DNA of 64,000 nt from Chlorobiaceae bacterium (GTDB lineage: Bacteria > Bacteroidota > Chlorobiia > Chlorobiales > Chlorobiaceae): NCBI GenBank assembly GCA_013334225.1, contig JAAXXY010000015.1, positions 1 through 64,000 on the forward strand, in the 5' to 3' direction. A program made the translations under genes and the position numbers. A model generated the notes under the pieces. The model saw nothing but the letters and a program-made list of their open reading frames with translations. It was not told where the DNA came from and searched no databases. Shown here piece after piece: positions 6,257 through 37,757 of the stretch (position 1 is the stretch's first letter; the number at the start of each line of letters is the position of its first letter).

Positions 6257-7066
6257 TCAACTGACTCCCAGAATAACACTCGAAGCCTTGAATGCGGTAC
6301 AGGCATGTCCACCCTCTTTGAGGCCCAGCTTTTCCGAACTGCCATGGGTGATGATTGCGGAGATAATATTGCCGCCTCCGATTTCCACATCGACTTCGGT
6401 ACTGACAGGCCCTTCGATAACTTTGCTGATCGTGCCGCAGATGATGTTGCGTGTGCTGATTTTCGCACTGTGCAGGTCCTGACCGATAATGATCGAGCTT
6501 GCCTTGACGATGGCATAAGCGTTTGAGCCCTCCTTGATGCCAAGATTGTCGACCGATCCGTTGGTAATGATCGACGTGATCCGGACTCCTCCGTTAAGCA
6601 GAAGGATGACTTCTGCATTGACCGAGCCTTTGGTTATTTTTTCAACGGTGCCGGAAAAAATGTTGCGTGCACTGATTTTCATTGAGATCCTCCTCAGGAA
6701 TTGATAAAAGTTTTTCGTGTCTCCAAGCCTTTCCTCAAGGTTTTCGAGAAATTTCCGGTGTTCATCCTGTACAACCCTGAACTGCTCGATCACTTTTCTT
6801 CCTTCTTTCGTCAGGAAGGTACCCCCACCGCCTTTTCCTCCGGTAATCCGCTCAACAAGCGGTTTGTCGGAAAGGTTGTTGATCAGGTTCACAAGGTGCC
6901 ATGCGGTTTTGTAACTGATGCCCGAAGCTTTTGCAGCACTGTTGATCGAGCCGAGCTCATCGATTTTTTCAAGCAATGCGATCCTGTCTCCTCCGAGAAA
7001 AGGATGCCGATCCTTCTGGAACCAGATCGAACCGTCAAGCCCTATTTCTTCTTTTCTGAATTTCAT
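6257..7066 (-). CDS. modE: Molybdate-responsive regulator ModE
   Basis: Transcription factor of 269 residues that binds molybdate and represses uptake genes or activates Mo-enzyme genes. Residues about 20-115 form the LysR-like winged helix of ModE (INSAAKASGISYKTAWHLVNLINN, then GGKGGGGTFLT). Residues about 128-195 and 200-268 are two tandem Mop/TOBE molybdate-binding domains, each starting with SARNIFSGTV- or STRNIICGTI-like motifs. Length and domain order match full ModE. It lies downstream of modA on the same strand. Palindromes with CGTTAT/ATAACG halves upstream of nearby Mo genes are its likely targets. Confidence 0.93.
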   Translation of the reverse strand: MKFRKEEIGLDGSIWFQKDRHPFLGGDRIALLEKIDELGSINSAAKASGISYKTAWHLVNLINNLSDKPLVERITGGKGGGGTFLTKEGRKVIEQFRVVQDEHRKFLENLEERLGDTKNFYQFLRRISMKISARNIFSGTVEKITKGSVNAEVILLLNGGVRITSIITNGSVDNLGIKEGSNAYAIVKASSIIIGQDLHSAKISTRNIICGTISKVIEGPVSTEVDVEIGGGNIISAIITHGSSEKLGLKEGGHACTAFKASSVILGVS

Positions 7067-7354: not shown

Positions 7355-8116
7355 TTATTTCAGGAGAAAGCCATATTTGTCGAGGACAGCATTAGCCTCT
7401 TTGCCCTGGAGAAAAGCAAGAAAGTCTTTCGCTTCCCGGTTACCGGCGGATTTTGAGATCAGACCCATCGGATAGGTAACTCTCGGGTAGAGATTTTGCG
7501 GCACCGTAAAAAGCAGTTTCGCTTTTTTTGCCTGCAAGGCGTCGGTACGGTAAACGAAAGCGCCATCTACTTCTCCGAGTTCGGCATACATGAGGCATTC
7601 CCGTACATCCTTTGCCATGATGAGCTTGCCGGAAAGTTTTTCGGCGATTCCGGCCTTTTGCATTGCTGCAGTTGCGTATTCGCCTGCCGGCACGCTTTTC
7701 GGGCTGCCGATGGCTATTTTGTCAAGCATGACAAGATCGTTCATCGACGAAACTTTTTTCGTGGTTGTTCCGGCAAAGACAAGGGTATTGAAAGCGAAGT
7801 TTTTTTCACTGGCGGCGACGATGAACTTTTTTTCCTTCAGGTAATCCATCCACTGGTTGTTAGCCGCGATGAAAATGTCGGCAGGAGCACCGTTTTCTAT
7901 CTGCCCGGCAAGGGTGCCCGATCCGCCGAAATTTTTCACGAACGTTGTTGCAGGGTGTTTTGCCGTATAGGCGGCGGTAAGGTCATTGATAACCTCTTTC
8001 AGGCTTGCAGCGATCGAGAGATTGACTTCGCCGGCAAATGCCCGGATACCTGGAGCAAGCAGTACGAAGGTGAGAATAAAAAGCCGGATCAGGGCCTGGA
8101 ACATTGGTTTTTTCAT
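7355..8116 (-). CDS. modA: Molybdate ABC transporter substrate-binding protein
   Basis: Periplasmic molybdate-binding protein of 253 residues. An N-terminal signal peptide ends near AFAGEV (about residue 28). The mature protein starts with the ModA motif LSIAASLKEVINDLT and continues with FGGSGTLAGQIENGAPADIFIAA, the oxyanion-binding core. A ModE-type palindrome lies about 107 bp upstream (8223-8246). No permease or ATPase gene is adjacent; modB and modC are about 20 kb away. It is therefore a solitary first binding protein in a block with modE and a TonB receptor. Confidence 0.93.
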   Translation of the reverse strand: MKKPMFQALIRLFILTFVLLAPGIRAFAGEVNLSIAASLKEVINDLTAAYTAKHPATTFVKNFGGSGTLAGQIENGAPADIFIAANNQWMDYLKEKKFIVAASEKNFAFNTLVFAGTTTKKVSSMNDLVMLDKIAIGSPKSVPAGEYATAAMQKAGIAEKLSGKLIMAKDVRECLMYAELGEVDGAFVYRTDALQAKKAKLLFTVPQNLYPRVTYPMGLISKSAGNREAKDFLAFLQGKEANAVLDKYGFLLK

Positions 8117-8222: not shown

Positions 8223-8246
8223 CGTTATGTCATTATGTTTATAGCG
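8223..8246. promoter_or_regulatory. ModE-type palindrome upstream of modA
   Basis: A 24-bp site with half-sites CGTTAT (8223-8228) and ATAGCG (8241-8246), which reads as CGCTAT...ATAACG on the minus strand. This matches the known ModE operator pattern of CGnTATAT-like halves in inverted orientation. It lies about 107 bp ahead of modA. The same spacing recurs in front of other Mo genes in this window. Confidence 0.65.
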
Positions 8247-9016: not shown

Positions 9017-11011
9017 TTACAGGGAACAGGTTACAGAAAGAACGAACTGCCTGCCCGGTTCCGGATACCCTTCAGAAACCGCATAATTGCGGTCGAACAG
9101 GTTTTCAACAGCAAACTGTGCCGAGAATGAACCGGAAAGCGCTGCATTTGCCCTCAGGTTGACAAGACCGTACCCTCCCGCAGTGTATTTCCCGTCACTT
9201 GTGCTGTAACGCTGTGAATCGAATTCGGTTTCAACGAGTATCCAGGAGTTTCTGCTGTACAGGAACTGCAGGTAGCTGTTTACTTTATGCTTCGGCACAT
9301 CGGTGAAATAGATTCCGGGATTGCTCTTGTTTTCCCTTTCGATGTAACTGTATCCTGCAAATCCCCTGAACCATGAAGCCGGCTTCCAGTCAGCCGAGCA
9401 TTCGAAACCGCTGAAGGTGGCTATTCCGGTGTTCTGGAACTGGTATTTGGTGCCGCTGACATTATCGACGCGCTGGATGACATCTGAAACGCTGCTCTGG
9501 AACAGAGATGCCGTAAGTTTGAGTTCTTCAAGCGGTTTGACAGAATAATCCAGACCGTAGTTCCAGCTCTGTTCAGGTGCGAGGGCCGGGTTGGGTAAAG
9601 CTTTTCCGAGCCTGTAAGAATAGCGGTCCTTCAGTGTTGGAAATCTCGTGGTTCTTGCGACATAAGCGGTCAGTTCCTGGTTAGTGCCGATATGTCCGTT
9701 CAAAGCCAGCTGATAGTTTGTCGCCTCGTTGTCGTCGAGCGGGAAAGAGGTGATGACATTGCTAACCAGATCTTCAGCCTTTATGGTTTTACGGAAATCA
9801 TGCCTTGCGCCAGCGATGACCGTGAGATTTCGGGAAGCTGTCCAGGAATCCTCGATTGCAACCGAAATGGTGTTGTCTTCGAACTCCTTTGCTTTCTGGC
9901 CGACATTGTATTCCCTGTGCAAGTCGTACTTTTCATGAAGAGCGGCTTTCAGCGTGTTGTCCTTGAAGATTCCCGTTCCCAGTTCCACGGACGCCCCGTA
10001 GGTTTTGTCGTCATAAACGCTTGTGAACGATGACGATTTGAGCTGGGTTCTGTAGTTGGCGTCATCATATGCGTCCAGGACATTGTAATAGAGGTCGCTG
10101 TATGCCCTTGTTTTCAGGTATGTTTCACCTCCCAGGGAAGTTTTTCCGATATAGTAGAAGCTTGCCTTGTCCCAGTCACGGTATTTCCAGAACCTTGCAT
10201 TGGCGGCCGGATTGTTGGATCCGGTATAGACAGGAACTCCCTTGCTGGATGTAATGCCGTTGTAGGCAATGGTGTATTCGTCGGTTTCGTCAGGTGTATA
10301 ACCGATCTTGATTCCTCCGCTGACATCCTGATACTGTGAGTTGTCTCTTTTTCCGCCGTCTTCGTAGACCGTCGAAGGCGTAAATGATCCCGATAGCGGC
10401 CAGAAATCAGTGTTGATCGCTGACAGCGTGCCCTGGATATACCATTTTCCAAGATTTGAGCCGATTTTCAGACTGCCGAACTCGGTTGAAACGTCCTCGC
10501 TTCCCGTTGCGGTTCCGCTTTTCAGCGATGCTTCGAAAGGTTTTTCAGGCTTGCGGGTTATCAGGTTTATAGCGCCTCCGAGGGTATTCGGCCCGAAAAG
10601 AACCGAAGAATACCCTTTGGAAACGGTTACCTCCGAAAGATCAAAGGTGAGGAATCGGTTCGGGTCAACGTAACCGTCATAGGGCACGTATTGCGGGATA
10701 CCGTCCAGGTAGAGCGGAACCTGCCTCATGTCGAAACCTCTGACATAGATCATCCCTTCGTTTCTTCCGCCGACATTGCTGATGTTGACACCTGGAAGCA
10801 GGTTCACTGCCTGGGTGATGGTTTTTTTATCAAGCTTTTCCATATCGTCCGATGTGACTTTTTCGTTCGCATGGTTTTATTTACCTGAAACGGTAATTTC
10901 TCCGGCGGTGAAGACTTTTGCCGAGGTTTCCTGAGTATCCTGCTGAGCTGCCGCCATGGCCTGAATCTCGGGACATGCAAGGAGGAAGACAAGAAGTACT
11001 GCTTTTTTCAT
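9017..11011 (-). pseudogene. TonB-dependent receptor 1 with in-frame stop at codon 45
   Basis: Outer-membrane receptor for a TonB-energised substrate. An ATG at 11011 begins a signal peptide (MKKAVLLVFLLACPEIQAMA) and a TonB-box-like EITVSG. Codon 45 (10877-10879) is TAA. The same frame then continues without interruption to 9017 through the plug domain (LPGVNISNVGGRNEGMIYVRGFD, VLFGPNTLGGAINLITRKP) and the barrel, ending in Leu after aromatic alternation. There is no frameshift; only one base change separates it from an intact gene of about 664 codons. Restart at ATG 10843 would give a protein with no signal peptide or TonB box. Two ModE-type palindromes lie upstream. Either a recent pseudogene or a sequencing error. 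Confidence 0.85.
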
Positions 11012-11030
11012 GATCGTGTGTGTTGCGTTA

Positions 11031-11054
11031 CGTTATGTTTTTATTTATATAACG
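11031..11054. promoter_or_regulatory. ModE-type palindrome upstream of TonB receptor 1
   Basis: A 24-bp site with perfect half-sites CGTTAT (11031-11036) and ATAACG (11049-11054), 20 bp ahead of the receptor ATG at 11011. Spacing is identical to the modA site, and the position fits a repressor blocking the ribosome-proximal promoter region. Confidence 0.7.
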
Positions 11055-11174: not shown

Positions 11175-11198
11175 CGTTATATTTTAAAATACATAACG
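11175..11198. promoter_or_regulatory. Second ModE-type palindrome near TonB receptor 1
   Basis: CGTTAT (11175-11180) and ATAACG (11193-11198) with 12 bases between; the flanks extend the match to ATCGTTAT/ATAACGAT. It lies about 165 bp upstream of the receptor start and 60 bp past the ferredoxin stop, so it belongs to the receptor promoter rather than to nif. Confidence 0.65.
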
Positions 11199-26835: not shown

Positions 26836-27705
26836 TCAGAGTTTCATGACAACAGGATTGAATGCTTTGGATGCGACAAGTACTTCATCTCCGACTTTGA
26901 GGTCATCCATGTCATTTTCTGTTAAAACGATCTCGAACAGTTCATTGCCTGAGCCTATGACTGCGAGATAGATGCAGTCGACTTTTCTGATGCTCAGAAT
27001 GGTGCTTGCAAATGAAAATTTGTTCGATGTGTTCCGGTTGAGAAATACCTCTGGAGCTGTGCCGTTCCGGACCACTTGTCCCATTTCGAGAATGGTCACT
27101 TTGTCGGAAAGCTTGAAAACCTCCTGTTTGTCATGGGAAACCAGCAGGGTTGTCAGGTTGAACTGCTTGTGAAAATTCAGAATTTCATCCTGCAGATTTG
27201 TCCGGGTTTTCTGATCGAGTGCAGAAAGCGGTTCGTCGAGAAGCAGTATTTCCGGTTCACGGAGAACGGCGCGAGCCAGGGCGACACGCTGTTGCTGTCC
27301 TCCCGAAATTGAAGATGGAAAGCGGTCCTTGAGAGCAAGAAGGCCTGTCAGTTCAAGCAGTTCACGGACTTTTCCGTCGTTTCTTTTTTCCTGCGCGAAC
27401 AGCAGGTTTTCCCATACTGTCATAGTCGGAAAAAGCGAATAGTCCTGAAAAACGAACCCGATTTTCCGTTTCTGTGGAGGCAGGTTGATCCTGGCATCGC
27501 TGTCGAACCAGACCTTTCCGTTGACCTCGATATATCCTCTTTCAGGTTTGACAAGCCCGGCAAGGATACGGAGCAGGGTAGTTTTTCCGCTTCCGGATTT
27601 TCCGTAAATGGTTTGCAGCGTACCAGGCAAAATGCTGAGATTGAGCGACAGGTCGAAATACCCTTCTGAACCGGAAAGTTTCTTTGTCACTTCGAGACGG
27701 ATCAT
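26836..27705 (-). CDS. modC: Molybdate ABC transporter ATP-binding protein
   Basis: ATPase of a ModABC importer; 289 residues. Walker A is YGKSGSGKTT near residue 35, the signature is SISGGQQQR, Walker B EILLLDEPLSALD, and the H-loop LLVSHD. The last 65 residues form a single TOBE-like domain. It overlaps the molbindin-like gene by four bases and is divergent from TonB receptor 2; modB lies about 4 kb away on the other strand. Confidence 0.9.
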   Translation of the reverse strand: MIRLEVTKKLSGSEGYFDLSLNLSILPGTLQTIYGKSGSGKTTLLRILAGLVKPERGYIEVNGKVWFDSDARINLPPQKRKIGFVFQDYSLFPTMTVWENLLFAQEKRNDGKVRELLELTGLLALKDRFPSSISGGQQQRVALARAVLREPEILLLDEPLSALDQKTRTNLQDEILNFHKQFNLTTLLVSHDKQEVFKLSDKVTILEMGQVVRNGTAPEVFLNRNTSNKFSFASTILSIRKVDCIYLAVIGSGNELFEIVLTENDMDDLKVGDEVLVASKAFNPVVMKL

Positions 27706-28118
27706 GATCTGCGGCGATCTTTTTGCGGGTTTGCGTCAAGCGAAAGCTGGCTCGCTTTTATCATTATCGTGACAGATTCATTTTCAAGCAATTGCATGCG
27801 TTCAAGAGCTTTCATGGTAATGATGCTGGTAACGGTTCCTGCGGGGCATTCCAGCCGTATATCGGCAAGTATACTACCTTGCCTGATTTCTTTTATGAGG
27901 GCGGAAAAACAGTTCAAGATACTTGTTTCACCGGAAAAATTTTTAACAAGGGAAACTTCGGTTTCCTTGAAAAGGACGGTAACATGGCATCCGGCAGAAA
28001 ATGAAGCATCGAGATCGAAAAGCAGCATGCCAAGTACAATACCTGATGCTTCGAGTTCGAGGAAACAGAGAGTTTCCTGCCGGTCAATACATTTGATGAT
28101 AGCCTGAATGTGATTCAT
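27702..28118 (-). CDS. Tandem Mop/TOBE molbindin-like protein
   Basis: Small protein of 138 residues from ATG 28118. Two consecutive TOBE/Mop-like repeats are visible, the second ending PAGTVTSIITMKALERMQLLENESVTIMIKASQLSL, the pattern of molybdate-binding molbindins and ModE/ModC tails. The open frame continues 16 codons upstream to 28166, but the family similarity starts at MNHIQAIIK. It overlaps modC and probably stores or delivers molybdate to it. Confidence 0.75.
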   Translation of the reverse strand: MNHIQAIIKCIDRQETLCFLELEASGIVLGMLLFDLDASFSAGCHVTVLFKETEVSLVKNFSGETSILNCFSALIKEIRQGSILADIRLECPAGTVTSIITMKALERMQLLENESVTIMIKASQLSLDANPQKDRRRS

Positions 28119-28278
28119 GGTTTTGAATACCTGCTGACCGAAAGAGATTCCTTTTGGTGAAAGCATCCGGAAGCCGGTTCGTTTATTTATATTTGATTAT
28201 CAATTTGCAGAGCCTTTGTTGATATTAAATTTTTTAGCCTTCATAAAAAAATATCGAATATTTATTAGGCTTAACAAT

Positions 28279-28356: not shown

Positions 28357-28379
28357 CGTTATTCTTGAAGAATATAACG
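28357..28379. promoter_or_regulatory. ModE-type palindrome, distal site of TonB receptor 2
   Basis: CGTTAT (28357-28362) and ATAACG (28374-28379), 23 bp overall, also internally symmetric (TTCTTGAAGAA). It lies midway between divergent modC/molbindin and TonB receptor 2 and could serve both. Confidence 0.65.
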
Positions 28380-28483: not shown

Positions 28484-28506
28484 CGTTATTTCTTCAGGAT
28501 ATAACG
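28484..28506. promoter_or_regulatory. ModE-type palindrome at the start of TonB receptor 2
   Basis: CGTTAT (28484-28489) and ATAACG (28501-28506), 23 bp overall, ending 17 bp before the receptor ATG at 28524. The position would block the promoter or ribosome site. Confidence 0.7.
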
Positions 28507-28523: not shown

Positions 28524-30752
28524 ATGAAAAAAATTTTTCTGCTTGTTTTACTTCTTGCTGTATCTGAAACCGCTTTCGGCAGCGGAACAGCATCTGATGT
28601 ACAACTGATTGCCGCAAACAATTTCACCGCTGAGGAGATTGTTGTAAACGGTAAAAAAGGTGATGTTCTTCAACGTGTGACCGGCAGGGAATCAGAAGTG
28701 CTGAATCCTTCACAGATGTCGGTTTACAAGGCGATCAATCTCATGCCTTCATTGAGCCAGCAGAGTGTTGACCCATATGGCCTTGCAGATATTGTTAATT
28801 ATCACGAATCATTTCGTTTCAGGGGGGTCGAAGCAACTGCAGGAGGTGTACCCGCTACGACGGTGAACGTAGAGGGGCTTCCGGTAACCGGCCGGCCAGG
28901 GGGTGGTGCGACCATCTACGATCTCGAAAATTTCAGCAATATCAGTATCTATTCCGGTGTCATGCCAGCCTATGCCGGGCTCGGTATGGCTGATGTCGGC
29001 GGAAAAATCAATATGGATATCCGTCGTCCTGAAGACAAATTCGACCTGCAACTTAAAGAGGGTGTCGGCAGCCATGATTTCCGTCGCACGTTTGTAAGAA
29101 TCGATACCGGATTGCTGCCGGGCGACATCAAAGGTTTCGTGTCCTTTTCCGATGCTTCAGCCGACAAATGGAAAGGGGAGGGTGACAGCAAAAGGAAAAA
29201 CGTGATGGGTGGTGTGACGAAGCAGTTCGGGGACAATGTGAAACTCGAAACCTTCGTTACCTACAGTAAAGGGACGATCCATGCTTACATGCCGTTCACC
29301 TATTCACAAATCAGCAACCTTGATTACGTCTATTCGGCCGATTATGGTACCGATCCGAAGAAATACAATTATTATGATTACAACAAAAACGAGTTCGAAG
29401 ACTGGATGGTGATGGCAAACCTCGAGATTAAAACCGGGGAACATTCGGCTCTTTCCATCAAGCCCTATTACTGGAGCGATAATGGTTACTATATGGAGAC
29501 CATAACGCTTGCCAACAGCCAGAACCGGATCAGAAGATGGGATATAGACCACGATCTGAAAGGAATTCTCGCCGAATACAAGACTACTGCAGCCTCGACT
29601 GACCTTGATATGGGATATCTCTACCATACACAGTCACGTCCTGGTCCGCCGAGTTCCTGGAAGAACTATAAAGTCGATTCGAACGGCAACCTTGTTTTTG
29701 ATCAATGGACACTTCTGTCGAACGATTCGAGCCATGAACTGCAGACTCTATTCATCGAGGGGAAACATCGTTTCGGGGATTTTCAGATCGAGGGAGGCCT
29801 GAAGTATGTCATCTATTCACTGCCGTCGGTCATAACGTATAATACAGCCGGTATTGGCAATGTCAGCTATTATGATGCGCTTGCGACCAACCCTGCTGTA
29901 GTCGCAGCATCGAGTGCTCCGGATGCGAAAACTTTCAGGCGCCTTTTTCCGGATATCACTCTGTCGAGGATCCTGAACGACAATGTTACCTTTTTTGCCT
30001 CTTACGGTGAAAACTATGTCACCCATGTCGATATCTATCCCTATTACATACAGCAGCTGAGCTATTTCACCAGCAAAGGGATTACATTCCAGCAGCTCTG
30101 GGATAAAAAAGTGATGGAAATTTCGAAGAATTTCGAGATTGGCGTAAAAGCGAAAGGAAATAACTGGAGCATCATTCCGATATTCTATTATACAAAGCAC
30201 GACAACAAGCAGGCGGTTCTTTACGATGATGCGCTGGGTGCATACTATCCCATGAACAATGCAGAAGCTGACGGGTACGGGTTCGAAGTGGAGGGAGAGT
30301 ACAAGCCGCTCAAAAACCTCAAATGCTACGGTTCCTTTTCCTGGAACAAGTTCTGTTTCTCGCAGGATATCAACTCTGACGCATCAGGAAACAGCGTTAT
30401 CAGAGTCAAGGGAACCCAGGTTCCGGATGCACCTGAATTCCTTGCAAAAGGTATGATCAGTTATACAATCGGAGATTTTACCATAACACCGATTGTGCGG
30501 TATACTTCCGTACGTTATGGAGATGTTTTACATCAGGAAAAGGTTGATGGTGCAACACTTTTTGATCTTGATTTTACCTGGAGCAGGTCGATGTTCGGAT
30601 TTAAAAATGTCGATTGTTCACTGTCTTTTCTCAACATATTTGACAAAAAGTATATCAGCCTTATCAGTACTTCCGATTACAAAACTTTGAAGACATCATA
30701 TCTGCCAGGAGTTCCTTTCACTGTTATGGCGACAGTTGCTTTCCATTACTGA
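28524..30752 (+). CDS. TonB-dependent receptor 2
   Basis: Outer-membrane receptor of about 742 residues. The open frame extends 35 codons upstream, but ATG 28524 begins a clear signal peptide (KKIFLLVLLLAVSETAFG) and lies after the operator, so it is the start. A TonB-box-like EEIVVNG lies near residue 35. The plug domain includes YDLENFSNISIYSGVMPAYAGLGMADVGGKINMDIRRP. The barrel ends in an aromatic Tyr. Substrate unknown; ModE-type sites upstream and modAB downstream argue for a molybdate or Mo-chelate substrate. Confidence 0.88.
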   Translation: MKKIFLLVLLLAVSETAFGSGTASDVQLIAANNFTAEEIVVNGKKGDVLQRVTGRESEVLNPSQMSVYKAINLMPSLSQQSVDPYGLADIVNYHESFRFRGVEATAGGVPATTVNVEGLPVTGRPGGGATIYDLENFSNISIYSGVMPAYAGLGMADVGGKINMDIRRPEDKFDLQLKEGVGSHDFRRTFVRIDTGLLPGDIKGFVSFSDASADKWKGEGDSKRKNVMGGVTKQFGDNVKLETFVTYSKGTIHAYMPFTYSQISNLDYVYSADYGTDPKKYNYYDYNKNEFEDWMVMANLEIKTGEHSALSIKPYYWSDNGYYMETITLANSQNRIRRWDIDHDLKGILAEYKTTAASTDLDMGYLYHTQSRPGPPSSWKNYKVDSNGNLVFDQWTLLSNDSSHELQTLFIEGKHRFGDFQIEGGLKYVIYSLPSVITYNTAGIGNVSYYDALATNPAVVAASSAPDAKTFRRLFPDITLSRILNDNVTFFASYGENYVTHVDIYPYYIQQLSYFTSKGITFQQLWDKKVMEISKNFEIGVKAKGNNWSIIPIFYYTKHDNKQAVLYDDALGAYYPMNNAEADGYGFEVEGEYKPLKNLKCYGSFSWNKFCFSQDINSDASGNSVIRVKGTQVPDAPEFLAKGMISYTIGDFTITPIVRYTSVRYGDVLHQEKVDGATLFDLDFTWSRSMFGFKNVDCSLSFLNIFDKKYISLISTSDYKTLKTSYLPGVPFTVMATVAFHY

Positions 30753-30849
30753 GTTTTTTCTCTCTCTACGCTCTTTCTCGTTTCCCGACTTCCGGTATAT
30801 CTCCGGTGCCGGAAGTTTTTTTAAATGCCGTTTGATTCTGATTACAACC

Positions 30850-31575
30850 ATGCAAAAGAAACCATTTTTATTCCTGTTCGCTTTTTTGCTGCTCGTATCT
30901 CCGGTGCTTCAGGCAGAGAACATAACAGTTGCCGCAGGCGGAGGATATAAAAGACCTCTGATGGAGATTGCCGAAAGATTCGAGAAGAAGACCGGATATC
31001 ATATCGATGCTGTTTTCGGGCATATGCAGCAGATATTTTCCCAGGCACAGATGACCGGGCAGATATCGGTACTTTTCGGTGAAAGAAGTTTTTTTGAGCA
31101 GTCAGGAATCACCTTTGCATCCCATTACCCTCTGGGTCAGGGAAAACTCGTTCTTGCATGGCGTAAAGGATTGCTGATAAAGAAAATAAGTGATATAAAG
31201 GGAAGCTCTGTCACAAAGGTGGCCATGCCGGATGACAAAAAGGCTGTCTATGGCAAAGCTGCCGGCGAGTATCTGCAGAAGTCAGGACTTGGCAGCGATA
31301 TAAGCGGCAAACTGCTTGTCGTTTCCACGGTACCACAGGTTTCCTCATATCTTGTAACGGGTGAAGTCGATGCCGGTTTCATCAATGTTACCGATGCCAT
31401 CGGTGTTCAGGACAATATAGGCGGCTATCTTCCTGCCGAGCAATCGTACTACACACCGATTTTTATCCAGGCAGGTGTTGTCAAAGGATTCGAGAATCAG
31501 GCAGGTGTTGTCGCCCTGATGAAATTCCTCAGGGAAAAAGAGGCTATTGCCATCCTGAAACATTATGGTCTCTGA
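30850..31575 (+). CDS. Second ModA-like substrate-binding protein
   Basis: Periplasmic binding protein of 241 residues. A signal peptide (KKPFLFLFAFLLLVSPVLQA) is followed by the ModA-like opening ITVAAGGGYKRPLMEIAERFEKKTGYHI. It lacks the ASL motif of classical ModA, so it could bind molybdate, tungstate or a related oxyanion. The annotated open frame continues upstream to 30736, but ATG 30850 is the one with the signal peptide. Its stop overlaps the permease start (TGATG), so the pair is co-translated. Confidence 0.82.
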   Translation: MQKKPFLFLFAFLLLVSPVLQAENITVAAGGGYKRPLMEIAERFEKKTGYHIDAVFGHMQQIFSQAQMTGQISVLFGERSFFEQSGITFASHYPLGQGKLVLAWRKGLLIKKISDIKGSSVTKVAMPDDKKAVYGKAAGEYLQKSGLGSDISGKLLVVSTVPQVSSYLVTGEVDAGFINVTDAIGVQDNIGGYLPAEQSYYTPIFIQAGVVKGFENQAGVVALMKFLREKEAIAILKHYGL

Positions 31576-32255
31576 TGAAGCACTACCTCGATATTGTTTC
31601 AAGCAGAGGGATGGCAGATATCCTCATCCTGACCGCTGAAACGTCGCTTGTAACCCTCGTGCTTCATTGTATCTCCGGAGTGGTTTCAGGATATTTTTTT
31701 ACCCGCAAAAGAAGCGTATTCACTTTTCTTGCAGATGCCCTGATCACCATTCCCCTTGTTTTTCCTCCAATCGCTACAGGTTTCCTGCTGCTTCTCCTGC
31801 TTGGAAGAAACGGGCTGATAGGAAAGGCTTTACTGTCCTCGGGTTCCGGGATTATTTTCAGTAAAACCGGCGTTTTCATTGCCTCCTTTATAGCGGGTCT
31901 GCCCCTTGTTGTCAAATCGGTCCAGGCTGCCGTCGAAGGGGTTGACCCATCCCTGTGCGAGGCGGCATGGACACTGGGCAAAAACAGTTTTCAGACATAC
32001 CGTTTTGTTGTACTGCCTGCAATCAGGAATGCACTGTTGTGCGGTCTTGTCCTTTCACTGGGCAGGTCGCTTGGTGAAGTCGGTATAACGCTCATGCTCG
32101 GAGGCAATATCATCGGCAAAACCGAGACCGTATCGCTTGCAGTCTACAACGCCGTTTTTGAAGGAAATTTCGAAAAAGCGGCAGTGCTTTCCGTTTTGCT
32201 TGGCGGAGTGTCGATCGTTCTGTTCTATGTATTGCAGAAATTCGGTAAACCATAA
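31575..32255 (+). CDS. modB: Molybdate-type ABC transporter permease
   Basis: Integral-membrane permease of 226 residues with about five or six spans. The cytoplasmic EAA loop (EAAWTLGKNSFQTYRFVVLPAIRNALLCGLVLSLGRSLGEVGITLMLGGN) near residue 135 is the ModB/CysT signature. It overlaps the upstream binding-protein gene. Its ATPase is probably the ModC at 26836. Confidence 0.9.
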   Translation: MKHYLDIVSSRGMADILILTAETSLVTLVLHCISGVVSGYFFTRKRSVFTFLADALITIPLVFPPIATGFLLLLLLGRNGLIGKALLSSGSGIIFSKTGVFIASFIAGLPLVVKSVQAAVEGVDPSLCEAAWTLGKNSFQTYRFVVLPAIRNALLCGLVLSLGRSLGEVGITLMLGGNIIGKTETVSLAVYNAVFEGNFEKAAVLSVLLGGVSIVLFYVLQKFGKP

Positions 32256-32366
32256 CGATACTGGATCGGGCGCGTTTATACACCCTTTTGGAAAGAAACG
32301 GTAATGCCGGTTCCGTTTTTGTTGTAAGGAGTATGGGATTGACAAAAAGAATTTTTTTACGGTTAT

Positions 32367-32390
32367 CATTATAACATTTAAACTATAACG
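32367..32390. promoter_or_regulatory. ModE-type site upstream of TonB receptor 3
   Basis: CATTAT (32367-32372, one mismatch to CGTTAT) and ATAACG (32385-32390) with 12 bases between, ending 11 bp before the receptor ATG. Confidence 0.6.
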
Positions 32391-32401
32391 CTGAGAAATA
32401 A

Positions 32402-34321
32402 ATGAAAAACAAATCAGGCAGACTGATCATGCTTCTGTCGTTACTGAGCTCTTCGGCATTTTCTGATGTACAGGCATCCGCTCAGTCAATCAATAGCGGC
32501 CAGTCGGAGGAAATTGTCGTGACAGCGACACTCAACGAAACACCGGTTTCGAAAGTCCCGGCGGCAGTCGAAGTGATCGAGAGAATGGAAATCACCGAAA
32601 GCGGTGCTGCAACACTTTCCGATGTGCTCACGGAAGCCCAGAGCATCACCCTCGAGCCGACGAACGGTCGTCTCAGCGTGGCAAGACTGCGCGGACTGAA
32701 CAGCCGGAATACGTTGGTACTTATCGACGGTATGCGTTTATACGGCGGATTCCAGGGCTATCTCGATCTGGGTGAAATACCTGCCGGGATGATCGAGAGG
32801 ATCGAGATTATCCGCGGTTCCGGATCAGCACTTTACGGCAGCGATGCGATAGGGGGTGTTATCAATGTCATTACGAAGAAGCCCTCGAAAGATCTCCATG
32901 CCGGGCTGAACATTTTTTCCGGCGAGAGCGTATATGGTGAAGCTGGTAGTATCAATACGAACGGCTATATCAGCGGCACCCAGGGAAAACTGGGATATGT
33001 CTTTTCAGGTACCTGGAACAACAGAGACAGGTATGACAGGGACAAGAGCAGTCTCATGACGGATGGAGATGACCGGAGATCTGGAGCGTATTCCACTTCA
33101 TTGAATTACCGGCTGACATCGGGAGTTAACCTTTCGTTCGGTATCAATTATGCCGATACTGAACTCGATGGCATAAGGACTCAGCTTCAGAACAAAGTCT
33201 ATGTCGATAAAAACAGGAAAGTCGAAGCTGACCGCCTGCTCGGTTATATCGGACTTGACGTCGATACCGGTACAGAATCGAAACTTACGCTTCGCGCCCT
33301 GCAATCGCATTACGACTGGCGATCAGACATGCAACCGCTTGCAGGAGGTGCTGTGGAAACAACAACTCTTGAACAGAAATCAAGGGAGTACGAGGGAAGG
33401 TGGACGATAAAATTGTCTGACAGTCACCGGATTACGACCGGAATGGAGTACAGTTCCGAAGACAGGTCCGATAACGGCATTTCATATGATGCCCATAACT
33501 TCGCGGCGTTTCTGCAGGATGAAGTGCAGCTTGCAGAACCTCTCGGATTGGTATTTGGTGCGAGATATGACGATCATTCCGATTTTGGTAACGCATTCAG
33601 TCCCAAAGTGGGCCTCTGGCTTAAGCTTGGCGAACATCTTCGACTGAGGGGATCATACGGAGAAGGGTTCCGGGCACCAACCCTCTATGAGCTTGATACA
33701 GGATCATTGACGACCAAAAACAAGATCATCTATGCCAACCCGAACCTCGATGCCGAGAAATCACGTTCCTATGAAATCGGAGCTGATGGAACGTGGGGCG
33801 CATTCTCGTGCGGTGTTACCGCTTTCCGCAACGATATGAGTGATATGATCGGTGAAGTCAGGATCGGTATGAGTGGAAGCACTCCTGTTTATGAATTGCG
33901 GAATATTTCGAGCACCATGACCCAGGGTCTTGAATTTACGGCAGGCTTCAGGCTGGCACCGGGTCTTACGCTTTCCGATGAGCTGACGCTTCTCGGAACT
34001 GAAGATAAAACAACCGGTTATGATCTGCTCTATGTTCCTGATGCAGTAAATACGGTGAAACTTTTGTTTAAAGCCGGGAGCGGTTTCAGCGGCAATATCA
34101 GGGTCGTTACGACAGGTCGGCAATGGATAGACACGGCGACCCGTACCGATCCTTATACGCTTGTGAACTGTTATCTCGGTAAAAAGATCTACGGAAATTC
34201 AGAACTGTTCATAGGTGCAGACAATATTTTCAATGTTGAAGCCAATGCGGCTTATGGCAACAGTGGCGGGCCGGCATCGACAGGTACCTGTTTCTACGGA
34301 GGAATCATTTGTGCCTTCTGA
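32402..34321 (+). CDS. TonB-dependent receptor 3 (BtuB-like)
   Basis: Outer-membrane receptor of 639 residues. A signal peptide (MKNKSGRLIMLLSLLSSSAFS) is followed by a TonB box EEIVVTAT and a plug domain with RLRGLNSRNTLVLIDGMRLYGGFQG, IERIEIIRGSGSALYGSDAIGGVINVITKKP. The barrel ends in Phe. It is close to vitamin-B12/colicin-type receptors in plug sequence, but its ModE-type operator and the preceding modAB point to a Mo substrate. Confidence 0.88.
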   Translation: MKNKSGRLIMLLSLLSSSAFSDVQASAQSINSGQSEEIVVTATLNETPVSKVPAAVEVIERMEITESGAATLSDVLTEAQSITLEPTNGRLSVARLRGLNSRNTLVLIDGMRLYGGFQGYLDLGEIPAGMIERIEIIRGSGSALYGSDAIGGVINVITKKPSKDLHAGLNIFSGESVYGEAGSINTNGYISGTQGKLGYVFSGTWNNRDRYDRDKSSLMTDGDDRRSGAYSTSLNYRLTSGVNLSFGINYADTELDGIRTQLQNKVYVDKNRKVEADRLLGYIGLDVDTGTESKLTLRALQSHYDWRSDMQPLAGGAVETTTLEQKSREYEGRWTIKLSDSHRITTGMEYSSEDRSDNGISYDAHNFAAFLQDEVQLAEPLGLVFGARYDDHSDFGNAFSPKVGLWLKLGEHLRLRGSYGEGFRAPTLYELDTGSLTTKNKIIYANPNLDAEKSRSYEIGADGTWGAFSCGVTAFRNDMSDMIGEVRIGMSGSTPVYELRNISSTMTQGLEFTAGFRLAPGLTLSDELTLLGTEDKTTGYDLLYVPDAVNTVKLLFKAGSGFSGNIRVVTTGRQWIDTATRTDPYTLVNCYLGKKIYGNSELFIGADNIFNVEANAAYGNSGGPASTGTCFYGGIICAF

Positions 34322-34368
34322 TATCTCAAAAATTGTCATCCATTTTGTAAACAATATCATCTTTATTC

Positions 34369-34770
34369 ATGAACCGATTCGGACTTGTTATTGCTTTCTG
34401 CTCTATTGTGATGTTTGCTGCCGGATATCTTCATGCTGAAACGAAATCGCCTGAAGGAAAGCAGATTTTCGATAAAAATTGCAGTTACTGTCATTCAATG
34501 ACCCCGCCGGCAAAATCAGCACCACCTATACTCGGCATTGCTCTTCACTATCATGAGGCTTTTACCGAAAAGGAAAAAGGGGTGAAACATATGGTGAAGT
34601 TCATGAAAAAACCGGACGAGAAAGATTCGAAGCTGGAAGCGAAGGCTGTAAGCCGTTTCGGCCTTATGCCAGCCTCTGCACTTTCGGAAGCGGAACTGAA
34701 AACGGCGGCTGAGTGGCTTTGGGACAGTTATGATCCGGCATTCAGATCTCCGGGAAGCTGCGGCAAGTAA
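34369..34770 (+). CDS. Monohaem c-type cytochrome
   Basis: Secreted protein of 133 residues. A signal peptide (about residues 1-23) is followed by the haem motif CSYCH near residue 38 and a methionine (FGLMPASAL) that could be the sixth ligand. It starts 48 bp after TonB receptor 3 and is likely co-transcribed. A redox step in the uptake or release of the transported metal is possible but inferred. Confidence 0.85.
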   Translation: MNRFGLVIAFCSIVMFAAGYLHAETKSPEGKQIFDKNCSYCHSMTPPAKSAPPILGIALHYHEAFTEKEKGVKHMVKFMKKPDEKDSKLEAKAVSRFGLMPASALSEAELKTAAEWLWDSYDPAFRSPGSCGK

Positions 34771-34865: not shown

Positions 34866-35864
34866 TTACTCGACCTCCTCGATCAGCTCACCGCTCCTGA
34901 GCCTTGTGCGGAGAGCCATCAGCCTGTTGTCGAGCGCCTCGAGCATTGCGAGATTGTTTTTTTCCTTTTCTGTTGTTCTGAGGACCTTGTGGATTGCTCC
35001 GTTCCTGATGACGAGCCTCCGTTCAGCCATCAGTGCAAGGATGGGGTCATGGGTCGCCATCAATACGATTTTTTCTTTTCTTACAAGCAGTGAGAGCGCT
35101 TTTTTCCTGTCGATGCCCGCATTTTCTATTTCGTCGATCAGTACAACCGGTGAGGAACTGAGAAATGCCGTATCTGCGATCATCAGGGCCCTCGATTGTC
35201 CCCCCGAAAGGGAGGTGACCGGGGTTTCCGCACAGAACTGCTCACCAGCAAGCAGGTTTGCCTGTACGATAATTTCTTCTACCACTTCCGGAGCATTGCC
35301 GATCATGCGGCTTTCTGCATGCAGGGCCACGAAATCGGCTGCCGTGATATCCATGACGAAGTTCATGTTCTGCGAAAGCTGGGCAACCAGCTTGTATTCA
35401 AGTGAAAATCGCAGGTCGGGATCCGGGATATCGCCATTCACCAGTATTGCGCGTCCTGTTGGCGTATCACCCTGTGCCATCCATTCGATGTCCGCCAGCA
35501 GGCGGCTCTTGCCTGAACCGGTCGGCCCGACGATACTGGTTACCGAACCGCGGACGAGAGTAAGCTTCACCTCTTCAGGTTTTCGGCTCTTGTCGTGACC
35601 GCCGATTATCGTGATATCGTTCACTGGCGGCAGTCTGCTGTTCAACGTTTCATTTTTCTGCAGGATAAAACCTTCGATCTGTTCCTTCAGACCGAACCGG
35701 TCGATACCCATGTCTTCATAGATTTCTTCCGGCAGGGAATCCAGATATGAGTTGAGGGACAGATCATGGTTTTCGGGTGCAAGTCCATAATCATGCAGGA
35801 TCCCGGAGATTTCGGGTACCTCGGTCATGAGATGGGCTATTTTCCGTTCGAACATCCCTGTCAT
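34866..35864 (-). CDS. ABC-type ATPase without permease, third gene of a Mo-linked triad
   Basis: Soluble ATPase of 332 residues. Residues 1-95 are a helical N-terminal domain (ISGILHDYGLAPENHDLSLNSYLDSL) that faintly resembles the ScdA/DUF1858 N-terminal fold but lacks cysteines. The ABC domain follows: Walker A GPTGSGKS near residue 120, signature TSLSGGQSRALMI, Walker B SPVVLIDEIENAGID and H-loop MATHDP. No permease lies nearby. The start ATG 35864 overlaps the GTPase stop (ATGA). A longer upstream frame exists but would overlap the GTPase extensively. Confidence 0.8.
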   Translation of the reverse strand: MTGMFERKIAHLMTEVPEISGILHDYGLAPENHDLSLNSYLDSLPEEIYEDMGIDRFGLKEQIEGFILQKNETLNSRLPPVNDITIIGGHDKSRKPEEVKLTLVRGSVTSIVGPTGSGKSRLLADIEWMAQGDTPTGRAILVNGDIPDPDLRFSLEYKLVAQLSQNMNFVMDITAADFVALHAESRMIGNAPEVVEEIIVQANLLAGEQFCAETPVTSLSGGQSRALMIADTAFLSSSPVVLIDEIENAGIDRKKALSLLVRKEKIVLMATHDPILALMAERRLVIRNGAIHKVLRTTEKEKNNLAMLEALDNRLMALRTRLRSGELIEEVE

Positions 35865-36559
35865 GATGCGTTCTCCTGCAGTTTTATCCTTTTGATGTTT
35901 CCAAGTTGGAACTCCATGCCGATCCTTGTTTCGCCAAGGCAGTAGGAGCAAAGTGCGGCAGGCATTGAAAAACGCAGTCGTTCGCCTTCGAGGTTCACGG
36001 TTTCAGGGGCCTTGACGAACTGCGAAGCAAGTTCACTCGCTCCCTGACCGGTGATTCCGTTTATATGCATGATCTTCGCTTTCGGGTTTGCCCTCCGGAC
36101 CTGGAAGGCGAATACTTCCCGTTCAGCCTGGGAGACGATGTCACCTTTCGAGATGACAACGATGTCGGCATATTTGAGCATCGGGCCGATTTTTTTCGGT
36201 GTAGTCGCCCCCATGAGATTATCGATGACGCAGACGGCGAGTACTCCCTTGATATGAGGTGCACAGCGATTGCACAAACCGGCGCTTTCGGAAAGCAGGA
36301 TGTCGAGTCCGAGATCGAAACCCCACTTCAGGCATTCCTCGATATTGCTGACGAAGTAATGATCGGGACAGAGATTTCCCGAAAGTCCTGTCTGAACAGG
36401 AATGCCGAGCGAACGGAAGCGTTCGTCGTCATCGGTTGCAAGACAGTCGTATTTCAGAGCACCCGGACGCAGACCGGAGGCTTTCAATGATTTTGTGACC
36501 CCGGACAGAACCGCGGTTTTTCCGGATGACGGAGGGCCGGATATCGTGACAAGTTTCAT
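35861..36559 (-). CDS. UreG/HypB/CobW-like GTPase
   Basis: P-loop GTPase of 232 residues. Walker A is GPPSSGKT at residues 8-15; LLSESAGLCNRCAPH parallels the ENxGxLVCP metal motif of HypB; a VISKGD stretch is the G4-type base motif. Further cysteines are in ALCSYCLGET. The family inserts metals (Ni, Co, Zn) into enzymes using GTP. It overlaps the ATPase gene by four bases, and the solute-binding-like gene lies 27 bp upstream. Confidence 0.8.
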   Translation of the reverse strand: MKLVTISGPPSSGKTAVLSGVTKSLKASGLRPGALKYDCLATDDDERFRSLGIPVQTGLSGNLCPDHYFVSNIEECLKWGFDLGLDILLSESAGLCNRCAPHIKGVLAVCVIDNLMGATTPKKIGPMLKYADIVVISKGDIVSQAEREVFAFQVRRANPKAKIMHINGITGQGASELASQFVKAPETVNLEGERLRFSMPAALCSYCLGETRIGMEFQLGNIKRIKLQENAS

Positions 36560-36586
36560 AAATGATGATCGATGGTCATAGAACGT

Positions 36587-37660
36587 TCAGGTCTGGAAAA
36601 CATCGGGGAGAAGCCCTTTTTTCAATTCGATATCGAGAGTCGCAACCAGCTCTTCGTAATCGTTGTTCAGGAGATACTCCCATGAAGGATAGCTGAACGG
36701 CTGTGACCAGTCAAATTCTTCGGCAAGACGGAAATCCCCCCTGCGCAACGCCTGCCTCATAGCCTTACTGTGCAGGAAATTGATGAGCGGACGGCATTCT
36801 TCCAACCGTGATGTCTTGACATACATCAGCATTGGCGCGAGCACAGGTCCGTCCTCGAATTCGAGGATTGCGGCCTGTTTTTTTGTCGGCATCTGAACGG
36901 TTGCCGCATTCGGCAGCAGGTTGAAGGGTGTCCGGCGAGGTTCCGTCGAATCCAGTCTCTTGAGGATCTCTGCGAAGTGCCAGACGTTTCGGATGTTTCC
37001 GGCAAAGTCCATTACGGCATTCCTGCCGAGCTTTTCCGTGAGTATGAGCAGAAGAGCCGCGATGCTTGCCTTGCCGTTATATCCGTGAACCGTTATGAGT
37101 CCTTTATAGAGCGGATCGACAAGATCGGTCCAGCGATGCGGATAAGGCACGATGGTATTGAGTGAAAGATCGCAGACAATGCTCCATTGTCCTATGCTGA
37201 AAATACCGATATTGTTTTCAGTTGCGATTTTTCTGTATGTTTCAGGCATCTGCCTGAGCGCCATTTCACTGGTGATGCCTGTGTAAATGCCTGAATCGAT
37301 GAACATTTTCTTGAAGTTTGTCGACAAAACGGTATGCAGTCCTGAAGCGATCATGATTTCCGGTATCTCCTCTTCACTTCGGGCCGACTTCAGTTCACCC
37401 TCGATACCTTTGGAATCACCGTCAAGCAGCATGGGAGAGTAGATCGGTACCTCATGCGATGCATTATAAATCTCGACAAATTCTCCTATTACCATTTTTG
37501 CCACGACTTTTAGCGGGCAGGGCATGTTCATGTAAAGATTGATTGCCCCTTTTTTGAGAAGGGGTATACCGTTTCCAGTAGATTTGCGGGTAAGCGGTGG
37601 AGAACCGCATGTTGCAAGAACGCTGCCGTCCCTGTCAATCCGGTCAAATGATTTTATCAT
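36587..37660 (-). CDS. Solute-binding-protein-like, no signal peptide
   Basis: Protein of 357 residues with the type-2 periplasmic-binding fold (resembling iron(III)/oxyanion binding proteins): MNMPCPLKVVAKMVIGEFVEIYN, later NIGIFSIGQWSIVCDL, VHGYNGKASIAALLLILTEKLG. The N-terminus (MIKSFDRIDRDGS) has no hydrophobic export signal, so it may act in the cytoplasm. It is the first gene of the three-gene operon with the GTPase and ATPase. A ModE-type palindrome lies about 75 bp upstream. A role in Mo or Mo-cofactor handling is inferred from that operator. Confidence 0.75.
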   Translation of the reverse strand: MIKSFDRIDRDGSVLATCGSPPLTRKSTGNGIPLLKKGAINLYMNMPCPLKVVAKMVIGEFVEIYNASHEVPIYSPMLLDGDSKGIEGELKSARSEEEIPEIMIASGLHTVLSTNFKKMFIDSGIYTGITSEMALRQMPETYRKIATENNIGIFSIGQWSIVCDLSLNTIVPYPHRWTDLVDPLYKGLITVHGYNGKASIAALLLILTEKLGRNAVMDFAGNIRNVWHFAEILKRLDSTEPRRTPFNLLPNAATVQMPTKKQAAILEFEDGPVLAPMLMYVKTSRLEECRPLINFLHSKAMRQALRRGDFRLAEEFDWSQPFSYPSWEYLLNNDYEELVATLDIELKKGLLPDVFQT

Positions 37661-37733: not shown

Positions 37734-37757
37734 CGTTATTTATTGTATTGCATAACG
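37734..37757. promoter_or_regulatory. ModE-type palindrome upstream of the GTPase/ATPase operon
   Basis: CGTTAT (37734-37739) and ATAACG (37752-37757) with 12 bases between, extended to CCGTTAT/ATAACGG. It lies about 75 bp ahead of the solute-binding-like gene and matches the modA and TonB sites in spacing. Confidence 0.7.

Follow-up and report, generated by a model that had tools for sequence, protein, structure and literature searches.

We analysed a window of 64,000 nucleotides (contig C39 in the 3.05-Mb, 101-contig genome of a Chlorobium-like bacterium of the Chlorobiaceae) in which three genes for TonB-dependent receptors, called R1, R2 and R3 here, lie among genes for molybdate transport. 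R2 (28524-30752, forward strand) is followed on the same strand by modA2 (30850-31575), which encodes a divergent periplasmic binding protein of the ModA family whose ligand positions are changed, by modB (31575-32255), encoding a molybdate-type ATP-binding cassette (ABC) permease, by R3 (32402-34321), and by a gene for a small secreted c-type cytochrome (34369-34770) that recurs as a neighbor of R3 or R2. Divergent from R2, on the reverse strand, are modC (26836-27705), whose product is the presumed ATPase partner of ModB, and a gene for a separate TOBE/Mop-domain protein (27702-28166) comparable to the C-terminus of ModC. R1 (9017-11012) belongs to a second group on the reverse strand, with modE (6257-7066), encoding a regulator with a helix-turn-helix and two Mop domains, modA1 (7355-8116), encoding a canonical ModA, and a gene for a small secreted protein of the molybdopterin-binding fold PF00174 (8363-8929), a conserved partner of R1. 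An earlier note on this DNA had placed R2 and R3 on either side of modA2-modB, and R1 beside modA and modE. The gene coordinates agree with both statements, with the additions that the PF00174 gene lies in between and that R1 has an in-frame TAA between its TonB box and plug in this assembly. The modA2 product passes the TIGR01256 model (89 bits, cut-off 62.5), and that of modB scores just under the cut-off of TIGR02141 (166.6, cut-off 182.6). TonB and ExbD are encoded elsewhere in the same genome (C41:178554-180415).

The ModE protein of E. coli recognizes ATCGNTATATA-N6-TATATANCGAT, which includes CGNTAT-N12-ATANCG (PMC545781). The modA region of that species contains CGTTAT-N12-ATAACG once in exact form. 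We found ModE-type palindromes upstream of all three receptors. Two exact copies with a spacing of 11 precede R2 (28357-28379 and 28484-28506, the latter 17 bp before the ATG), two exact copies precede R1 (11031-11054 and 11175-11198), and another precedes a three-gene unit at 34866-37660 (37734-37757). Copies with one mismatch lie upstream of R3 (32367-32390) and of modA1 (8223-8246). The operators that had been noted earlier at R2 and R3 are thus present, the one at R3 as a one-mismatch copy. The exact form CGTTAT-N11/12-ATAACG occurs only five times in the 3.05-Mb genome, and all five copies are inside the 64-kb window. The 12-spaced form with no more than one mismatch was found five times in the window, against 0.08 expected from dinucleotide shuffles. 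No ModE-type site was found at the other three TonB receptors of this genome (contigs C41, C54 and C88).

The sites recur with the receptors in other genomes. When 250 bp upstream of each ortholog was searched, a site with at most one mismatch was present in 23 of the 26 R2 regions (25 of 26 when two mismatches were allowed), in 17 of the 27 R1 regions and in 7 of the 9 R3 regions. Of 295 unrelated genes, 6 had such a site, as did 3 of 960 shuffles (0.3%). The nifH, D, K, E and N genes of the same neighborhoods had none at this threshold (0/84). The ortholog counts come from related sequences and are not independent events, so that genome-wide counts are the stronger test. In one 2.15-Mb genome (G141), all eight sites with one mismatch or fewer fall at molybdenum-related loci: modABC is preceded by two of them and a second Mod-type ABC system by one, another separates modE from modA1, and single sites lie ahead of R1, R3, a molybdopterin oxidoreductase gene and the methylase gene in the R1 operon; R2 of that genome has two-mismatch sites only. 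Another genome, G116, has four of its six sites within a cytochrome-R3-R2-modA2-modE locus, and the reversed control pattern gave none. An exact site also lies ahead of R3, followed by a cytochrome c gene, in genome G038. Small cytochromes c accompany R3 or R2 in the Chlorobiales more generally. In one relative a putative porin gene (Porin_5; locus L173, 7351-8537) has a ModE-type site ahead of it and could provide a porin route for molybdate under the same control. We infer that ModE binds these palindromes.

The family of R2 needed to be established by other means than Pfam, as R2 gave no match to Plug or TonB_dep_Rec at E values up to 0.1 except for one unrelated weak hit. Its N-terminus matches that of R1 (34% over about 218 amino acids), which has both the Pfam plug and the barrel, and BLASTP matched R2 to R1 only among the receptors of the genome. 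R3 is over the cut-off for both PF07715 and PF00593. Structure prediction, which the earlier note had proposed for the plug and the barrel pocket, was informative in part. The AlphaFold barrel of R2 (residues about 173-700, mostly at a predicted local distance difference test, pLDDT, of 70-90) matched PqqU/YncD, Fiu, FecA and OprC in Foldseek (E values of 1e-22 to 1e-17), but the plug was not confidently modelled and we claim no binding site. An EEIVV-like TonB box is conserved in R2, and its orthologs are 57-79% identical with an almost invariant N-terminal region. Because of the predicted fold and the homology to R1, we place R2 among the TonB-type transporters even though it is below the Pfam thresholds.

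A scan of the whole collection with an R2 alignment gave 24 loci, each of them in a green sulfur bacterium, and no ortholog outside the Chlorobiales. The loci include the isolates Chlorobium phaeovibrioides, Chlorobaculum thiosulfatiphilum, Chlorobium sp. N1 and Chlorobaculum sp. 24CR. A mod gene (modA2, modB, modE, modA1 or modC) was near R2 in 22 of the 24 loci, often right after nifHDKENB, and in one of the other two the contig stops just past R2. R2 precedes modA2 and modE in G116 and precedes modE and modA1 in G141, and modE is 3 kb from R2 in G038.

R1 has relatives beyond the Chlorobiales. Its 97%-identical ortholog in another genome, G034, is open throughout, so the TAA in our assembly must be a nonsense change of recent date or else an error in the sequence. 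In three non-Chlorobial genomes from two other families of Bacteroidota (G228, G066 and G101), an R1 relative is beside a short modE and a PF00174 gene, and in G228 this cluster is followed by modA, TOBE, modB and modC. A search for the nitrogenase alpha chain gave no match in these three genomes, and the same search detected Mo-nitrogenase in Chlorobiales genomes. The cysteine of a CxS/TGE-type motif in the PF00174 protein of the window is kept in 12 of 13 relatives, some of them outside the Chlorobiales. This protein could be a periplasmic partner of R1. At one non-Chlorobial mod cluster (L149, 7970-9073), a gene for an MbnH/MauG-like di-heme enzyme stands between R1 and the PF00174 gene.

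The R1 gene of Chlorobaculum and of G038 is part of an operon with the order tetrapyrrole methylase, R1, FecCD-type permease, ATPase, binding protein, and the unit of an SBP protein, a GTPase and an ATPase; in some copies of the operon no separate gene for the binding protein was called. ModE-type sites precede both the methylase gene and R1. The best match of the Chlorobaculum permease in the PDB was MolB (HI1471) at 222 bits, with the next at 173, and MolA (HI_1472) was third among the PDB matches of the binding protein. At three loci (L157, L159 and L164) the tetrapyrrole-methylase-like gene lies between two ModE-type sites, directly upstream of R1. We know of no reason for a tetrapyrrole methylase to be under molybdenum control.

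The unit at 34866-37660 (reverse strand) encodes an SBP_bac_6-like protein, a HypB/CobW-type GTPase and an ABC ATPase. It is 85-93% conserved in G034, and it lies downstream of the MolBCA-type operon of R1 in Chlorobaculum, where R3 also adjoins it. The SBP_bac_6-like protein has no evident signal peptide, and no solved relative of it was found.

Taken together, these data make a regulatory and genomic link between the receptors and molybdenum highly probable. The earlier note had proposed this link, with energized uptake of molybdate or a molybdenum chelate, and the link stands on operator sites, operon structure and conservation across genomes; the part that does not follow is the transported species, for which molybdate is not an obvious choice. 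The restriction to limitation during nitrogen fixation was also too narrow. R1 lies by modE in three genomes that show no nitrogenase match, suggesting that the molybdenum link is not confined to nitrogen fixation, and in G141 the molybdopterin oxidoreductase too is preceded by its own ModE-type site. We think it likely that R1, R2 and R3 form the ModE-controlled outer-membrane arm of molybdenum acquisition, and that the receptors probably import a molybdenum species.

The usual assumption is that molybdate passes the outer membrane by way of porins. In the scheme we propose, ModE would sit on the palindromes when cellular molybdate is high and repress R1, R2-modA2-modB, R3 with its cytochrome c, modA1 and the 34866-37660 unit, and all of these genes would be expressed when molybdenum is scarce. 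The receptors would then bind a rare extracellular molybdenum species, and ExbB-ExbD-TonB would drive its passage into the periplasm. There, ModA2 may accept what R2 delivers, and for R1 we infer that the acceptors would be PF00174 or MolA-type proteins. ModB-ModC, or a MolBC-type importer in Chlorobaculum, would take the inward step.

We found no member of the modA2 subfamily outside the Chlorobiales in the phylum sample. Aligned to solved ModA proteins, ModA2 has Gly, Gly and Met at the N-terminal ligand positions of Azotobacter vinelandii ModA, and it keeps the Tyr134 and Val161 positions. The Ser/Thr/Asn residues at these positions of A. vinelandii ModA are, we presume, the oxyanion side-chain ligands. 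Judged from this alignment, ModA2 appears to be without the usual oxyanion-binding side chains. The predicted structure of ModA2 had a mean pLDDT of 63 and was dropped for pocket analysis. Because ModA2 would have lost the side chains that hold molybdate in characterized ModA proteins, plain molybdate is not the obvious ligand, and a chelate or a thiomolybdate is at least as plausible. Rather than bare molybdate, the most likely ligand is molybdenum in complexed form, be it chelated by an organic compound or present as a thiolated anion such as sulfidic water would contain. The narrower proposal that the TonB receptors and ModA2-ModB take up thiomolybdate or other sulfur-rich molybdenum species of the sulfidic habitat is a tentative one, to which we give a low probability.

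As a sub-case of molybdenum import, the receptors might move plain molybdate or tungstate, that is, carry out energized uptake of the bare oxyanion. The Mod and Mol systems handle molybdate and tungstate oxyanions. TonB transporters for nearly bare metal ions have been reported, among them the copper transporter OprC and the manganese transporter MnoT (PMC8602904). Against this version, porins let small anions through, and a putative porin gene of one relative has a ModE-type site; the altered side chains predicted for ModA2 argue the same way. We consider this version unlikely.

A second possibility is that the receptors bring in a chelate of iron (or vanadium) required once molybdenum is exhausted, as for building an Fe-only nitrogenase, and that this is why they are under ModE. 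The window genome encodes AnfD and AnfK in a cluster on contig C99 (L067, 1977-11683), where anfD and anfK are over the cut-off and are accompanied by a nifH-type gene, a second nifB and a nifA-like regulator gene, and one-mismatch ModE-type sites precede the nifH-type and nifA-like genes. In two relatives R1-PF00174 is directly beside anf genes. Yet, of the 16 genomes with R2 that were examined (G141 included), just 3 gave AnfD, R2 shares one operon with modA2-modB or is next to modE and modA, and relatives of R1 lie by modE in genomes that gave no nitrogenase match. We discarded iron supply to the Fe-only nitrogenase as the only reason, as most R2 genomes lack AnfD, and the iron or vanadium explanation as a whole seems to us quite improbable.

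The remaining idea, that R1 and R3 carry a corrinoid or another tetrapyrrole and that molybdenum control is secondary, would suit the BtuB/CirA-like sequence of R3 and the tetrapyrrole methylase and BtuCD-like importer of the Chlorobaculum R1 operon, but it is very improbable, since the permease is nearer to MolB than to BtuC among solved structures and the R1 operon has ModE-type sites ahead of it, with no reason known to us for molybdenum to govern corrinoid uptake. Rfam gave no cobalamin riboswitch in the window, an absence that offers no contrast as there is none at the other three receptors of the genome either.

Several observations weigh against uptake of a molybdenum species by all three receptors. 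R3 is CirA/BtuB-like in sequence and is mod-linked in fewer genomes, and a different ligand could be indicated by the tetrapyrrole-methylase-like gene that the R1 operon has in Chlorobaculum. The models do not allow ligand specificity to be read off, given the low confidence of ModA2 and the poor plug of R2. Many Chlorobium genomes are without R2, and R2 is therefore not essential.

If molybdenum uptake by these receptors is confirmed, passage of molybdenum across the outer membrane would be a controlled step, taken through conserved, energized receptors under ModE, and candidate receptors would be named for chelated or thiolated molybdenum. This would bear on the molybdenum supply of nitrogen fixers in sulfidic water, and orthologs of the receptors occur in cultured green sulfur bacteria. 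Very little was known in 2012 of the availability of thiomolybdate, which is expected in sulfidic water, according to a review, which suggests unknown mechanisms for molybdenum gain in sulfidic porewaters (PMC3440940). In the open-access literature we found no TonB receptor assigned to molybdenum or controlled by ModE, which is weak evidence of novelty as most subscription papers lie outside it. The mod-linked receptors suggest that a molybdenum compound has its own route across the outer membrane, for which there is no established example.

Among known systems, the molybdophores of Azotobacter have in common with our proposal the uptake of chelated molybdenum under limitation; we found no receptor named for them in passages of that review (PMC3440940), and no chelator biosynthesis genes were identified here. 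Pseudomonas aeruginosa has a dedicated outer-membrane route for molybdate, IcmP with a type VI-secreted ModA (PMC8602904), and shares the dedicated outer-membrane step. MolBC-A of Haemophilus influenzae is a low-affinity molybdate importer, and molB is repressed by molybdate (PMC4031551). In Chlorobaculum, the permease of the R1 operon has MolB as its nearest solved relative, and MolA is among the matches of the binding protein, but the operon differs in having a TonB receptor and ModE-type sites. In H. influenzae, too, molABC may have a TonB receptor nearby. By analogy, the low affinity of MolBC-A for bare molybdate would be consistent with a natural ligand of the chelate type. With ModABC-ModE the locus shares the regulator, the palindrome, and the modA2-modB genes beside R2; the ligand positions of ModA2 and the split modC and TOBE genes differ, and TonB receptors are here added to the predicted regulon. 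With TonB transporters such as PqqU/YncD, Fiu, FecA, OprC, BtuB and CirA, R2 shares the predicted barrel fold and R1 and R3 share matches to the plug and barrel models, and a signal peptide and an apparent TonB box can be seen in the receptor sequences. Unlike those transporters, they have mod genes and ModE-type sites nearby rather than iron, cobalamin or copper genes.

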